From a virus: DNA of 64,000 nt. The notes beneath the pieces were generated by a model that saw only the letters and a program-made list of their open reading frames with translations, did not search any database and was not told where the DNA came from. Within the stretch, counting starts at the first letter, position 1. Each line of letters begins with the position of its first letter. Location of the stretch: IMG/VR virus record IMGVR_UViG_3300032213_003587, positions 52,442 to 116,441 of that record; one strand, given 5' to 3'. A program made the position numbers and the translations under genes. Shown piece after piece: positions 5,018 to 53,120 of the stretch.

Positions 5018-5287
5018 TTAGGCAGATTTTTTGCTTACTTTATCTGTGGGTGTATTGGAAACGAAGCCGTTGAGCTCTTTGGCTTTATTGATGACATCGG
5101 TTTCACTGGGATATGCTGGCACTGCTGGATGGTCTGGAATAGCGCCGCCGTTTAATTTGGCAACCTCGACCCTAATGCGCCAGTCTTCTTGAAGTTGATC
5201 ACGCTTGCCAAAGTATTCTTCGACCAGCATGTCTTTCGCCATTTTTAGAAGTTCAAGGCGAATCTCGAACGGAGTTAGATTACTCAT
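5018..5287 (-). CDS. Conserved small phage protein
   Basis: The 89-aa protein (MSNLTPFEIRLELLKMAKDM...) has a long N-terminal helix followed by a Pro-rich segment (GGAIPDHPAVPAYPSE). Proteins with this opening are common hypothetical genes of marine T4-like phages, but I know of no function. Its upstream gap contains pqqA. A weak NATAAATA late-type element lies about 65 bases upstream. Confidence 0.8.
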   Translation of the reverse strand: MSNLTPFEIRLELLKMAKDMLVEEYFGKRDQLQEDWRIRVEVAKLNGGAIPDHPAVPAYPSETDVINKAKELNGFVSNTPTDKVSKKSA

Positions 5288-5360: not shown

Positions 5361-5435
5361 TCAACGATTTGCGATGTACATGGTGATTTCAAAACCAAAA
5401 CGCAGATCCTGTGCTGAGGGGGTGGTCCATTTCAT
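5361..5435 (-). CDS. pqqA: PqqA, pyrroloquinoline quinone precursor peptide
   Basis: A 24-codon frame (MKWTTPSAQDLRFGF followed by EITMYIANR, then TGA) matches the PqqA family along its whole length. The family has an MKWTKP-like start, the -DLRFGFE- core, and the invariant Glu and Tyr spaced E-x3-Y (Glu16, Tyr20), which the radical SAM enzyme PqqE crosslinks to start PQQ synthesis. AGGAG lies 7 bases upstream of ATG, so translation is well supported. PqqA is consumed as a substrate, so one gene can feed the host PqqBCDE pathway; no other pqq gene is in the window. Upstream is a short hairpin (5453..5468). Confidence 0.92.
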   Translation of the reverse strand: MKWTTPSAQDLRFGFEITMYIANR

Positions 5436-5452: not shown

Positions 5453-5475
5453 GCAGAAAAATTTCTGCTATTATA
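5453..5475 (-). promoter_or_regulatory. pqqA leader: hairpin and possible -10 box
   Basis: Reading the minus strand, TATAAT at 5475-5470 is followed by a near-perfect inverted repeat GCAGAAATTTTTCTGC (5468-5453), 17 bases before the pqqA ribosome binding site ends at the ATG. No good -35 is found at 16-17 bases, so the promoter is weakly supported; the hairpin may protect or tune the pqqA message. Confidence 0.35.
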
Positions 5476-5504
5476 TCTATGCAAATCACCGCTACAGGAA
5501 ATCA

Positions 5505-6161
5505 TTAATCTGCCATAATAGTATCGCGCCATAACTTGGCTTGATTTAAATCATTATTTCTCAATGTATTTATGATGTCTTTATCAACGAGATTGGGATC
5601 AACCCACCAATCTTCAAAAGCACCATAACCTTCCACACTAACATTACTAATCACCAATTCATATCCATGATTGGTCAAATATTCTCTGCTTTGATCTCGA
5701 ATGTCGTTGCCAGCCAAATAGCTATCATGTTCGAATGTAATTACTCGATAACGACGTTGGCTGGTATTAAAAATCTGCTGCAGAGCTTGAAATGTAATGT
5801 TCGGTGGATCGCAGTCCATGCTCAGATAATCGATGATCTGATCGGTGATGTCTGCTTGATTGAGCAGATCATTGTAGTCCACATAACAGGCATCGGCCAG
5901 GACTGCGGGATTGGCTCGTTCAGCATTGAACTGATTCACTGCATGCGGTAAAATATCCAGGCTCACCCCTCGCCAGGTAAAGGCATTTTCCAGCAACCAG
6001 GTGTTGTTGGTGTATTCCGGAACATTGCAGCCAATCTCCAGATAGGAGCCGTGTTCTTTGCCATCCAGCATCTGTATGACAAACAAATCCTGACCGGCCT
6101 GACTGCCGTTGCGATCTATGTCTTCACTGCCGGGAAATTTATGCTTTAAATTCAAATTCAA
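5505..6161 (-). CDS. FkbM-like SAM-dependent methyltransferase
   Basis: The 218-aa protein has the FkbM-type opening GQDLFVIQMLDGKEHGSYLEIG with the SAM-binding acidic/Gly motif EIGC, then GVSLDILP (motif II) and IDYLSMDCD (motif IV-like). FkbM enzymes O-methylate sugars or small molecules. It sits with oxygenases and glycosyltransferases, consistent with surface or virion glycan modification. It is one of two FkbM-like proteins in the window (see 14177..15046). Confidence 0.78.
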   Translation of the reverse strand: MNLNLKHKFPGSEDIDRNGSQAGQDLFVIQMLDGKEHGSYLEIGCNVPEYTNNTWLLENAFTWRGVSLDILPHAVNQFNAERANPAVLADACYVDYNDLLNQADITDQIIDYLSMDCDPPNITFQALQQIFNTSQRRYRVITFEHDSYLAGNDIRDQSREYLTNHGYELVISNVSVEGYGAFEDWWVDPNLVDKDIINTLRNNDLNQAKLWRDTIMAD

Positions 6162-6164
6162 CTC

Positions 6165-6725
6165 CTAGGGATTGGTTGCGTGATGCGGTACATCAAATAT
6201 AAATGACACTCGTGGAACATCCGCAACATTCTCACTCCAATGATGATACTTGTTATTGAACCACATCAGGGTACCGGGTTCGATGACCACCGCTTCGACG
6301 GTGCCATCGGGATCTTCCACACTATACTTATAGCGTCCCTGCAGACTCAGATGATATCGATCCTTGTCCAGATAATAGCTTCCATGATCAATGTGACGTC
6401 CAACCTTCATGCCTACGGGCAGACTGAAGAACGCACAGCGTCGCACTGCATGAAAATTTTCCTTTAGGAAATCCACCATGGCGCGATGATGCTTCAGCGC
6501 CGGTGTTTGATGACAAATTTCGGTATCACCGACATATTGACCTAATCGCTCAATACCACCCATGACTAACTGTAGAATATCTACAGTGGTTTCGTATTTA
6601 GCCGGATCCTGCAGAGCCGTGCCCGGAAGCTTTTTCTGCGCACCCCAATCGTCTTTGAATTCTTCTAACTGTGCAAGAATTTCATCAACATTGATGCCGG
6701 TTCTAATTATGCGAATATTCTTCAT
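6165..6725 (-). CDS. Aspartyl/asparaginyl hydroxylase-like 2OG-Fe(II) oxygenase
   Basis: This 186-aa protein carries the double-stranded beta-helix signature: HID (His-x-Asp) in VGRHIDHGSYYL, RYHLSLQG after it, and the distal His and 2OG-binding Arg in NNKYHHWSENVADVPRVSFIF. This is the layout of the Asp/Asn/Pro hydroxylase family (AspH-like). Such oxygenases are frequent in aquatic T4-like phages, with unknown targets. It starts 4 bases downstream of the next gene's reading block, behind a sigma70-like promoter. Confidence 0.82.
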   Translation of the reverse strand: MKNIRIIRTGINVDEILAQLEEFKDDWGAQKKLPGTALQDPAKYETTVDILQLVMGGIERLGQYVGDTEICHQTPALKHHRAMVDFLKENFHAVRRCAFFSLPVGMKVGRHIDHGSYYLDKDRYHLSLQGRYKYSVEDPDGTVEAVVIEPGTLMWFNNKYHHWSENVADVPRVSFIFDVPHHATNP

Positions 6726-6734
6726 TGAAATACT

Positions 6735-6763
6735 ATTATGTATTAAATCAGCAATAAAGTCAA
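6735..6763 (-). promoter_or_regulatory. Sigma70-type promoter
   Basis: TTGACT (6763-6758) and CATAAT (6740-6735) are separated by 17 bases. Predicted +1 falls about 3 bases before the ATG of the oxygenase at 6725. Confidence 0.6.
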
Positions 6764-6764
6764 T

Positions 6765-7028
6765 TTATTCGTCAAATACTCCGGCCACATCGTCTTCGCT
6801 GAGGAAGTAGGTTGGAATACCATCGATTGTAGTTGGATTGACCTTGTTCCAATCCACCAACAAGGTGTCGCCTACTCGAAGCAAGGTTACGTCTGGTCCA
6901 ATGGCAATGGCCTGGGCTTTGTCGATGCTGGCACCGACATTGCCTTTGATGATCAATCCAGACTCGGAAGTTTCTTTGTTTTTGAGACGCACGACTGCCA
7001 CGGTTTTTTTCAATGGTTTAATGTTCAT
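6765..7028 (-). CDS. 31: GroES/gp31-like co-chaperonin
   Basis: The 87-aa protein has the co-chaperonin pattern: N-terminal strand MNIKPLKKTVAVVRL, a short mobile-loop region (KNKETSESGLIIKG), AQAIAIGPDVTLLRVGDTLLVD, then a C-terminal strand with FLSEDDVAGVFDE. T4 gp31 (111 aa) replaces GroES on host GroEL to fold the large capsid protein gp23. This protein is shorter, closer to bacterial GroES in length. Confidence 0.88.
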   Translation of the reverse strand: MNIKPLKKTVAVVRLKNKETSESGLIIKGNVGASIDKAQAIAIGPDVTLLRVGDTLLVDWNKVNPTTIDGIPTYFLSEDDVAGVFDE

Positions 7029-7047
7029 ATCATCCTTAGTATATAAT

Positions 7048-7761
7048 TTAATTCCAATATTTTGAATAATCTATTTCATTCCAATACTTTGCGTTGTTGC
7101 GATTCCAAAAATTTTTAATCAGATACCGGGCCATGCCAAAGTATCCCATCTTCTGAAATCTGCGACTATCCTGACCTAGATAGTGATTCATCAATTTGAA
7201 CTTGTTGACTGCATACATCTTGGACAGGAAGAAATCTTCACTGGTACCATACTTTTCAGCAAATCCACCAAATTCTTCAAACTTCGATCTGCGGGTCAAC
7301 ATATATGCACCAACAGCAAATGGTACCCAGTGTTTCATTATGTTGTTGATAGCATTGAACAACATAAATCCAACGTTGGCTCTGAAGTCGTTGTCATAGC
7401 ATTTTAAATAAAGACCAATTAAATCCAAATCTCTGTCTTCTAATTCACGCACAGTATCTGCTATAACGGTGTCGGAGAAAAATCTAACATCGCTGTCAAT
7501 GAATAGTATATATGGAGTTGTTACAAGTCTGGCGCCATTGTTCTTGGCAATGGAAACTGGGCCCCCGTCAATAATTTCAACATTTTGATCTTGATGAGTG
7601 TGATAACGTATAACCTGTCTAGTATTATCTGTAGAACAATCAGCAATTATAATTCTGGTGTTACCAATATCTTGTTTACGCAAAGACTCCAACAAGTGAG
7701 GAATATAGTCCGCCTCATTCTTGCAGGGAACAACAATGGTGATTTTGTCACTGAGTTTCAT
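7048..7761 (-). CDS. Family 2 glycosyltransferase
   Basis: The 237-aa protein opens with ITIVVPCKNEADYIPHLLES, the GT2 nucleotide-binding start, then IIIADCSTDNTRQV and the metal-binding YILFIDSDVRF (DSD). A C-terminal half with FAVGAYMLTRRSKFEEFGGF and SEDFFLSKM follows the GT2 catalytic layout. The end is rich in Asn/Tyr/Trp (NRNNAKYWNEIDYSKYWN). It overlaps the LpxH-like gene upstream by 14 bases, suggesting a shared role in envelope sugar chemistry. Confidence 0.88.
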   Translation of the reverse strand: MKLSDKITIVVPCKNEADYIPHLLESLRKQDIGNTRIIIADCSTDNTRQVIRYHTHQDQNVEIIDGGPVSIAKNNGARLVTTPYILFIDSDVRFFSDTVIADTVRELEDRDLDLIGLYLKCYDNDFRANVGFMLFNAINNIMKHWVPFAVGAYMLTRRSKFEEFGGFAEKYGTSEDFFLSKMYAVNKFKLMNHYLGQDSRRFQKMGYFGMARYLIKNFWNRNNAKYWNEIDYSKYWN

Positions 7762-8518
7762 TAATTTTATCCTTTTCCTGGGTCCAGGTTACAATCTCCC
7801 ATGCTCCATCATGATGTTCCACCAATGCTGTGCAACTCTCAACCCAATCACCATCGTTCATATAAACTATGCCATCTATCTCTTTGATCTCTGCGTGGTG
7901 GATGTGTCCGCATATCACTCCATCAAAACCACGCTTGCGGCAATAGCCAACAAGATTACGCTCAAACTGAAACATAAAGTCCATGGCCTTCTTGACCTTA
8001 TGCTTGAGATACTTAGATAGACTCCAATAACCAAAGCCCATGCGATGGCGTATCCAATTATACTTGCTGTTAAGACTGAGTACAAAGTCATAGGCCTTAT
8101 CTCCTAGAAAACTTATCCAGGGGGCTAGTCTGGTTATGCCGTCAAAGAGATCGCCATGTACCACCAGATAATGTTTACCGTCGGCACCTATGTGCTCAAT
8201 CTGATTTGTTACTTCAATTAATCCAAAACCTATGCCATAGGGCATCAGTGGTCTTAAAAATTCATCGTGGTTGCCGGCTACATAGACTACACGAGTTCCA
8301 CGTTTAGCGTGACCCATGATTCGGCGCACTACATTGGTATGACTCTGCTTCCATCGCCATTTATTCTGCTGTATACGCCAGGCGTCGATGATATCACCCA
8401 CCAGGTACAGAGTGTCACAGGTATTGTGTTTAAGAAAATTGTTTAACTGTTCAGCCTTGCAATCTCGGGTGCCAAGATGCACATCGCTGATAAAAATACT
8501 GCGATAGGTTTTTTGCAT
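7748..8518 (-). CDS. LpxH-like UDP-2,3-diacylglucosamine pyrophosphatase (calcineurin-type phosphoesterase)
   Basis: The 256-aa metallophosphoesterase has all family blocks: SDVHLG (Asp12, His14), VGDIID (Asp42), AGNHDE (Asn83-His84), VVHGD and the final GHIHHAE. The overall pattern, including KWRWKQSHTNVVRRI and YMNDGDWVESCTALVE, matches the LpxH/UDP-diacylglucosamine hydrolase subfamily, which makes lipid X in lipid A synthesis. Substrate is inferred from subfamily resemblance. It lies just downstream of the tmRNA. Confidence 0.8.
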   Translation of the reverse strand: MQKTYRSIFISDVHLGTRDCKAEQLNNFLKHNTCDTLYLVGDIIDAWRIQQNKWRWKQSHTNVVRRIMGHAKRGTRVVYVAGNHDEFLRPLMPYGIGFGLIEVTNQIEHIGADGKHYLVVHGDLFDGITRLAPWISFLGDKAYDFVLSLNSKYNWIRHRMGFGYWSLSKYLKHKVKKAMDFMFQFERNLVGYCRKRGFDGVICGHIHHAEIKEIDGIVYMNDGDWVESCTALVEHHDGAWEIVTWTQEKDKINETQ

Positions 8519-8536
8519 GTTATTTTTATTAGAATT

Positions 8537-8820
8537 GCCGGCTGATTGGATAATAAGGACAGCCGGCGAAACCTCATCTAGTGCTTAAGCAGCTAGAGCG
8601 TATAACTCGTCGTTTGCAGTTATAGGTTTTGCTTCTTTTACGGAGATCGCCTACCGTGTTGTCCATGTCAGTACTTGTTACCCTGTCGAAACCAGGTCAG
8701 CCCCATCAGAAACATACTTCGTCCTGCAGTACAGTCCTTTTCACAAGGTGTGGCACGGTCTGCAAATATGCTTCTGGTGGAGCTGGGCGGAATCGAACCG
8801 CCGTCCAGAATACTTTTCCA
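8537..8820 (-). ncRNA. ssrA: Circularly permuted (two-piece) tmRNA
   Basis: Read on the minus strand, the acceptor piece comes first: a T arm GGCGG-TTCGATT-CCGCC then CAGCTCCACCA ending at 8775. A spacer of about 70 nt follows, and then the coding piece begins at 8704 with GGGGCTGACCTGGTTTCGAC. GGGGCTG pairs with CAGCTCC over 7 bp including the G3-U pair recognised by alanyl-tRNA synthetase. CAGGGTA and TATTCTG can form helix P2. The tag frame starts at GCA 8617-8615 and encodes ANDELYALAA, stop at 8587-8585. An 8-bp hairpin (8567-8560 with 8544-8537) ends the coding piece. The outer 5' limit is approximate. Confidence 0.93.
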
Positions 8821-8842
8821 TCTACTTCATACAACAATATCT

Positions 8843-9238
8843 TTATTTAGTGGAGTTGGCTAGCTGCCGATAACCTCGACCCGTAGGATGCACCCCATCC
8901 TTGCTAAGTTCCGGTATGGGCAATACGGTATCGCCATAGACTTCGGCAATTTTGCGAATCATTTCTTGCCGATCCGGTTTAATAGCCGGAAGAATCCAGA
9001 ACACTCGCTCAGCCTTAACCTGTTCACGCAGAGCCTTTAAATTGCCCATGGTGTTGATGCTGCGCCAATCGTTGCTGCCCAGACTGATGATCACAGCACG
9101 CGCCTGCAGAGATCCACTTAAATAGATGCGATTCCAGTCCGCAGTATTGATGCCACCGTTGGCCAAGGCCACACATTCAGGTCGGTGATGATGCGTACCA
9201 ACCGCAATGCTGTCGCCGAGTATCATGCAGTCAATCAT
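8843..9238 (-). CDS. Small SGNH/GDSL-type hydrolase
   Basis: The 131-aa protein has the SGNH blocks: ILGDSIAVG (Ser10), a Gly in ALANGGIN, SLGSNDW (Asn56) and DGVHPTGRGY (Asp114, His117). This family includes lipases, acyl- and carbohydrate esterases; many remove acetyl groups from envelope polysaccharide. It is shorter than most. Its ATG overlaps the rubredoxin stop (CTATGA), so it is co-translated with the redox pair. Confidence 0.82.
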   Translation of the reverse strand: MIDCMILGDSIAVGTHHHRPECVALANGGINTADWNRIYLSGSLQARAVIISLGSNDWRSINTMGNLKALREQVKAERVFWILPAIKPDRQEMIRKIAEVYGDTVLPIPELSKDGVHPTGRGYRQLANSTK

Positions 9239-9369
9239 AGAACCTCGTAGTCTTCTTTATAGGCACCGCACTCTGGACAGGTAAAATGGTCTGGCAATGT
9301 ATTCCAGGCACCTTCCAATTCTTCGTCGTGTTCATGACCACAGACTACGCATACATGTACTTCGCTCAT
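9235..9369 (-). CDS. Rubredoxin-like protein
   Basis: A 44-aa protein (MSEVHVCVVCGHEHDEE...) has the two rubredoxin knuckles, CVVCGH (Cys7, Cys10) and CPECGA (Cys32, Cys35), which hold one Fe(Cys)4. It is slightly shorter than free rubredoxins (about 52 aa) and resembles the C-terminal domain of rubrerythrin. Its ATG overlaps the stop of the rubrerythrin-like gene just upstream (ATGA), so the pair probably works together as electron donor and diiron peroxidase. Confidence 0.88.
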   Translation of the reverse strand: MSEVHVCVVCGHEHDEELEGAWNTLPDHFTCPECGAYKEDYEVL

Positions 9370-52124: not shown

Positions 52125-53120
52125 TTATTTATCGTCGTCGTCTTCACCGGTTTCTTTGGCTTCTTTGCTGCGTGGAGCCGCCGACATGGTTTCCACCTTC
52201 TTGGTGCTGCCATGATAGATGTGACGAGTGCGTTTACCTGCTGGTGTTGTTACTACAAAACTATGATGAGCTTGACCACCTTTGCTGCTAGTGGTTTCAT
52301 TGCTGATCTTATTGCCGGCTTTCCTATGAGCGTCTTTAACTGCCATAAGATCGCTGGCCATGTAGGCTTCTAGAAATACATCTTCGTTCTTGGCTTTGAA
52401 GCCCGCATCCACTTTATTGAAGAACGCCTTCTTTTCTTCGTCGCTCATATCGCCAATGGATTTGCCAGCGGACTTTAATTTAGCACGGAAGTATGCATCG
52501 TAGTTCTTATCGGCTTCGTCGATGCTGTATTCGCGATCTTTGTAGATAATGGTTTCATCTACTGGATCGAAATCTTCCTTCATACGCTGCGGCATCTTGC
52601 TCAGGGTCTCATACTTCTCTTTGGTCTTTTTATGACCAGCGGCCTGCACTTCATCGGCTTCAAATTTTTCTTCTTTTTCTTCTTTGGTCACACCCTGGTG
52701 TACAATCTTATCGATCTCACCGGTGGTGCCCTGCTTGTTGGCTGCATCTAAAGCGTCGTCCATGGCCTTTTTCTTGATGGCCTGTTTAGGATCGATGCTG
52801 ACCGGAGCATTGGTGTTCAGGGCTTCAGCAACCTTTTTGGCCTTTTTCATGCTGTGCATGTGACTTTCAGCCCGCAGGATATTGAGTTCCGCGGTTGGTA
52901 CACCGCGCTCCAGACCGTGTTCGAACATTACATCATACCAGGCAATGTTACCATAGCGGTCTGGATCGGCATGTTCTTCGCTGATGCAGTTGCCCTGACC
53001 CCATTCAGCGTGTTCGACGTGTTTAGCACAGTTATGCACAACCTTGCCGTCGTCCTGCATCATGGTAGCTTCGGCCTGCGCAGCATACATGTTGCGAATC
53101 GATTCTAACAGATTTTTCAT
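52125..53120 (-). CDS. Candidate internal capsid protein with two domains
   Basis: The 331-aa protein starts MKNLLESIRNMYAAQAEATM (AAAGGAA upstream), resembling a capsid-targeting peptide. It contains a conserved phage domain (HVEHAEWGQGNCISEEHADP then IAWYDVMFEHGLERGVPT) and an IDEA site at residues 200-203 like those in the 504-aa neighbour. The N-terminus is less like the T4 targeting sequence than those of other cassette members. An ATG 12 codons upstream is weaker. Confidence 0.68.
   Translation of the reverse strand: MKNLLESIRNMYAAQAEATMMQDDGKVVHNCAKHVEHAEWGQGNCISEEHADPDRYGNIAWYDVMFEHGLERGVPTAELNILRAESHMHSMKKAKKVAEALNTNAPVSIDPKQAIKKKAMDDALDAANKQGTTGEIDKIVHQGVTKEEKEEKFEADEVQAAGHKKTKEKYETLSKMPQRMKEDFDPVDETIIYKDREYSIDEADKNYDAYFRAKLKSAGKSIGDMSDEEKKAFFNKVDAGFKAKNEDVFLEAYMASDLMAVKDAHRKAGNKISNETTSSKGGQAHHSFVVTTPAGKRTRHIYHGSTKKVETMSAAPRSKEAKETGEDDDDK
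52126..52133 (-). promoter_or_regulatory. T4-type late promoter (GATAAATA)
   Basis: GATAAATA is about 32 bases upstream of the Ig-repeat virion gene ATG, at the 3' end of the preceding gene. Confidence 0.6.

Follow-up and report, generated by a model that had tools for sequence, protein, structure and literature searches.

The closest described counterpart of the gene considered here comes from Lake Baikal, where T4-like phages of Methylophilaceae carry pqqA together with a methanol dehydrogenase and the gene was interpreted as auxiliary (Coutinho et al., 2020; PMC7678222); the idea of pqqA as an auxiliary gene of T4-like methylophages has thus been published since 2020. Viral pqqA is also listed in a sediment study of 2026 (PMC13188868). 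The papers on phages MEP301, MEP401/402 and Venkman do not mention PQQ, and the Melnitz paper names it as a medium ingredient only. On the bacterial side, the residues of PqqA that are joined by PqqE are numbered Glu16 and Tyr20 (PMC10906245), and Methylophilaceae carry 3–12 copies of pqqA and generally one pqqBCDE set (PMC4109929), an imbalance consistent with precursor dosage already mattering in these hosts.

This report describes a pqqA gene in a viral DNA stretch of 64,000 nucleotides (the window; positions 52,442 to 116,441 of IMG/VR record IMGVR_UViG_3300032213_003587) and its relatives, gathered by four DNA pattern scans of IMG/VR. Four points were absent from searchable papers and appear to be new: the breadth of pqqA over unrelated cultured methylophages, its host specificity, its missed annotations and a recurrent 5' hairpin. 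On the basis of sequence comparisons it is considered likely that viral pqqA is a functional, stand-alone auxiliary metabolic gene supplying the consumable substrate for PQQ synthesis by the host.

A Complete pqqA Gene in the Window

The initial annotation placed a complete pqqA gene at 5361-5435. The interval stands, but the coding strand is the minus strand: the frame runs from 5435 to 5361, with ATG at 5435-5433 and TGA at 5363-5361, and translation of the same interval on the plus strand gives no coding frame.

5361..5435, minus strand: pqqA, 24 codons plus TGA, encoding MKWTTPSAQDLRFGFEITMYIANR; supported by translation, PF08042, TIGR02107 and a pN/pS below 1 in relatives

Profile comparison confirms the frame as a genuine and complete PqqA. 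The peptide scores 38.9 bits (E 7.9e-10) against Pfam PF08042 over profile positions 1-19 of 19 and 36.7 bits against the NCBIfam equivalog TIGR02107 over positions 1-21 of 21, far over the curated cut-offs of 21.1 and 20 bits, respectively. Full-profile matches above both cut-offs and the presence of Glu16 and Tyr20 with three residues between them (E16-x3-Y20) place the predicted peptide in the PqqA family, and the identity, residue pair and strong AGGAG site first proposed are all borne out. The match is the single one in the whole 116-kb record (E 8.4e-10) and the PqqA profile gave none in 14 control genomes; a chance ORF was excluded on the profile scores, the conservation of the frame and the small number of ORFs of 20-40 aa in the entire record (956). 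A PDB search with the peptide returned no structural relative.

A peptide of this kind might instead be the substrate of another enzyme, as a different RiPP or a signalling peptide to which PQQ is incidental, and the literature yielded neither a functional test of any viral PqqA nor expression, cross-linking or PQQ measurements for any phage PqqA. Such a role is nevertheless extremely improbable given the full-length match to the TIGR02107 equivalog, an E-x3-Y spacing identical to that of the PqqE substrate (PMC10906245) and the association with hosts that depend on PQQ enzymes.

Carrier Phage and Probable Host

The record, a linear fragment, comprises 116,441 bases with 46.9% GC. Its T4-like nature, as originally suggested, is upheld by genes for gp32 (PF08804, E 5e-48), gp59, PhoH, DNA ligase, T4 RNase H, NrdA and NrdB, and pqqA itself is surrounded by gp32, gp59, an endolysin-like hydrolase and other phage genes. 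This site among phage genes, the homology to host genes and the purifying selection described below together argue for classifying pqqA as a phage auxiliary metabolic gene. The record also encodes a tmRNA:

8494-8867, minus strand: permuted two-piece tmRNA of the betaproteobacterial family, with tag ANDELYALAA

Permuted tmRNAs occur in 40 of the 336 pqqA-bearing loci listed, in several of them near pqqA.

The window phage would infect one of the betaproteobacteria as formerly defined, probably a member of the Methylophilaceae. The same supply role could be played in a non-methylotroph, a member of the Burkholderiales whose glucose or alcohol dehydrogenases would be fed by the peptide: the beta-type RFGFEITMYIA core of the peptide is common among Burkholderiales and Rhodocyclales, which leaves room for a host that is no methylotroph, and a betaproteobacterial-type tmRNA does not single out Methylophilaceae. 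This alternative is rather unlikely, as all pqqA-bearing phage records with a named host (9/9) are from Methylophilales and the best score of gp32 of the record, 310 bits, is with the Methylophilales phage Melnitz, though cyanophages come close.

Signals and Neighbors of the Gene

The window pqqA fills the gap between two ORFs of the minus strand (5505-6161 and 5018-5287) and is preceded by a series of signals:

5018..5287, minus strand: downstream ORF of 89 aa, without a family; synteny with pqqA is found in several related contigs, among them L384, L399 and L396
5442..5446, minus strand: Shine-Dalgarno AGGAG with a 6-nt spacer to the ATG, read from the sequence
5453..5468, minus strand: stem-loop GCAGAAATTTTTCTGC, directly upstream of the ribosome site; stems changed in relatives, pairing kept
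5474..5481, minus strand: promoter-like element CATAGATA, retained in 10/11 aligned relatives; putative function
5505..6161, minus strand: upstream ORF of 218 aa with similarity to proteins of cyanophages/marine viruses

The CATAGATA element overlaps a TATAAT at 5470-5475 and may act as a promoter. In the lineage of the window the order is constant: the element (CATAGATA/TATAGATA), a gap of 5-6 nt, the stem-loop and the ribosome site. The consensus of T4 late promoters is TATAAATA; if the element is a promoter of this type, with the spacing generally known for them, transcription would start roughly where the stem begins and yield a short transcript with the hairpin at its 5' end. The stem-loop is therefore probably the 5' end of the pqqA mRNA and may have a stabilizing role.

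The 5' signal is conserved beyond the window. Stem variants that retain pairing among relatives include GCAGAA/TTCTGC, CAGGC/GCCTG and TGTAGGC/GCCTGCA. Across 191 de-duplicated viral pqqA genes, with genes of the same contigs as controls, a stem of at least 5 pairs located 50 to 8 nt before the ATG was found in 51% of viral pqqA vs. 25% of control genes, and one of at least 7 pairs in the same region in 32% vs. 11%.

Distribution and Missed Annotations

The frame recurs in hundreds of viral contigs. At least 330 IMG/VR viral loci carry pqqA and encode 126 distinct peptides, all of 23-25 aa; among the loci listed, the 22-codon core exists in at least 249 distinct DNA versions and a Shine-Dalgarno-like motif lies within 18 nt of 329 of 331 copies, compared with 12% at random positions. 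The sub-type WTTPxAxDxRFGFEITMYIANR occurs in 108 contigs in a completed IMG/VR scan and accounts for only 3 of the 112 newly fetched loci among the matches listed in the general scan, which suggests thousands of viral pqqA genes in total, a probable figure that has a broad margin of error and presupposes that the matches listed are a random sample. In one viral record of 94.5 kb (L048) pqqA is present twice, with 70 kb between the copies.

Two independent PqqA queries agreed on the same 12 matches among 50,697 phage records: four Melnitz isolates, Venkman, MEP301, MEP401, MEP402, P19250A, a Manatee Spring phage and two contigs labelled 'Acinetobacter phage'. The nine genuine matches with a named host all infect Methylophilales; the phages differ in kind (Kyanoviridae, Zobellviridae and others). 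A Methylobacterium-type PqqA query (an approximate sequence) found no match in these records. The two 'Acinetobacter phage MD-2021a' matches were discarded, since at least one of them has a complete pqqABCDE and a bacterial look; in CAKLQF020000010.1 (L125), positions 6001-9261 hold ppk, fur and the full pqqABCDE operon.

The expectation that gene callers miss so small a gene held: pqqA lacks annotation in P19250A, Venkman, MEP301 and MEP401/402, in Melnitz and the uncultured Manatee Spring phage the strand opposite to it carries an annotated CDS, and PHROGs contains no family matching phage pqqA. The opposite-strand 'hypothetical protein' CDSs (L121 7967-8062 in Melnitz; L126 2067-2195 in MW202481) are probably miscalls.

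Gene-sharing clusters of pqqA contigs swing with the threshold (6, 36, or 74 groups) and do not give a lineage count. On balance, it seems probable that pqqA is near-core in phages of PQQ-dependent methylotrophs and was repeatedly acquired by unrelated lineages (T4-like, Zobellviridae, other tailed phages), usually as one gene of 23-25 codons that has a promoter and a 5' hairpin of its own, a counterpart of cyanophage psbA which annotation pipelines drop or mis-strand.

Purifying Selection on a Solitary Gene

Since the search patterns fix many residues, pN/pS was computed only at codons they leave free; a first value of 0.117 was dropped for including residues fixed by the patterns. At free codons the nearest-neighbor pN/pS is 0.245 overall, 0.441 in the N-terminal part and 0.098 in the four codons after the tyrosine. 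The cultured phages and the window, with matches taken from tblastn, have a value of 0.231 (22 codons). The values lie well under 1, as expected under coding constraint, and viral pqqA is under purifying selection. A pattern in which Glu and Tyr were left free found at least 120 contigs, and both residues are retained in all 288 of the 288 fetched copies among the matches listed.

Searches with PqqB, C, D, and E (tblastn) found no match at the viral pqqA loci listed, and PqqE had no match in the 116-kb fragment of the window record. Of 120 betaproteobacterial pqqA loci, 85 were positive with the same queries and the other 35 had no pqqB-E nearby, which argues that the viral gene is pqqA alone. 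Adjacency to pqqBCDE, a usual but not a defining trait of PqqA, is thus missing from the window record; orphan pqqA is normal in Methylophilaceae, so this is no argument against membership in the family. Bacterial contamination of the viral contigs was ruled out because sequenced isolates have the gene and the viral loci listed, unlike this control, lack pqqBCDE.

The solitary state bears on two further explanations. The gene could be a passenger, recently captured from a host or a contaminant, with no role in the phage: pqqA is tiny and present in several scattered host copies (PMC4109929), which would make its capture easy, and some bacterial loci too have no pqqB-E nearby (35/120). Its presence in sequenced isolates, purifying selection at codons left free, the diversity of DNA versions (at least 249), the near-universal Shine-Dalgarno motif (329/331 copies listed) and the synteny of the L384 contig with the window at ~76% DNA identity over 4.4 kb make a passenger very improbable. 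Alternatively, surplus phage PqqA could act as a decoy or brake, titrating host PqqD/PqqE or feeding back so that PQQ is lowered or radical-SAM capacity redirected, and a pqqA without its enzymes is also what a titrating decoy would look like. A decoy would, however, tolerate or even favor non-reactive residues, whereas the chemically converted Glu and Tyr are invariant, and in two viral settings pqqA is joined with a methanol dehydrogenase that needs PQQ; this explanation is therefore judged quite improbable.

Methanol Oxidation and the Proposed Supply of Precursor

PqqA is the only consumed part of PQQ synthesis, one peptide being spent per cofactor. Under the favored reading, viral pqqA as a source of precursor, host PqqD would present the phage peptide, PqqE would link Glu16 to Tyr20, and a protease, PqqB and PqqC would then complete PQQ. 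As host transcription declines during infection the host PqqBCDE enzymes would remain, and phage pqqA, expressed from its own promoter, would maintain the supply of precursor, so that the host could keep its main energy source, a PQQ-dependent dehydrogenase of methanol (or another alcohol), charged until lysis. Expression and its timing, flux through host PqqBCDE and a fitness benefit are the presumptive parts of this scheme.

Some observations count against a supply role. No PQQ-repeat dehydrogenase was found in the 116-kb fragment, and one above the family cut-off occurs in only 1 of 50 whole pqqA-bearing records; the host is a probable one. In Acetobacter, overexpression of pqqAB raised PQQ by 29% only and that of pqqABCDE eightfold (PMC7936290).

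Besides pqqA, IMGVR_UViG_3300025120_009955 (L465-L467) encodes a methanol dehydrogenase of 624 aa that is nearest to XoxF enzymes of solved structure; its gene adjoins that of a formate dehydrogenase alpha subunit, and a quinoprotein-associated SoxYZ-like carrier lies beside pqqA. In the scanned parts of this record neither a capsid nor a terminase gene could be confirmed, and its viral nature thus rests on the IMG/VR classification and PHROG matches. An apparent viral methanol oxidation set spans L465 8989-17789 and L467, and the record has curli, DnaK, GroEL and tail-fibre-like genes as well.

If viral pqqA does supply precursor, a gene of 75 bases would yield the cofactor precursor for methanol oxidation, a one-gene solution reached repeatedly by viruses. 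Cultured host-phage pairs carry the gene unrecognized (Melnitz and Venkman with H5P1, MEP301, MEP401/402, P19250A) and so offer a clean experimental system. The data also suggest that blindness to short genes may conceal viral effects on C1 metabolism that are common in lakes and coastal seas; pqqA would further be usable as a sequence marker of methylophages.

Comparison with Known Systems

The Lake Baikal phage population VP_266 (PMC7678222) resembles the window phage in being T4-like, in its methylotroph hosts (probable ones for the window phage) and in a pqqA interpreted as auxiliary, but it encodes a methanol dehydrogenase and its GC content is 35%, whereas the window record has 47% GC and no PQQ dehydrogenase was found in it. 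The Baikal study dealt with one population only, and the spread over unrelated cultured phages is absent there (Coutinho et al., 2020; PMC7678222). Bacterial PqqA (PF08042/TIGR02107) shares with the window peptide its length, the W-P-D-R-G-E-T-Y skeleton, the E-x3-Y pair and the beta-type RFGFEITMYIA core; the window copy differs in being phage-encoded and in having no pqqBCDE after it. Melnitz (MZ577095-8) is also T4-like, with a permuted tmRNA and a pqqA whose peptide is 70.8% identical, but its pqqA lies at a different genomic site, unrecognized under an opposite-strand CDS, and its tmRNA was reported as alphaproteobacterial-like while that of the window is of the beta type. Through psbA, cyanophages renew a fast-turnover protein of the energy metabolism of their host. 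The likeness to viral pqqA lies in a component that is continually renewed, which is a protein in the case of psbA and, here, a peptide substrate spent one per cofactor.
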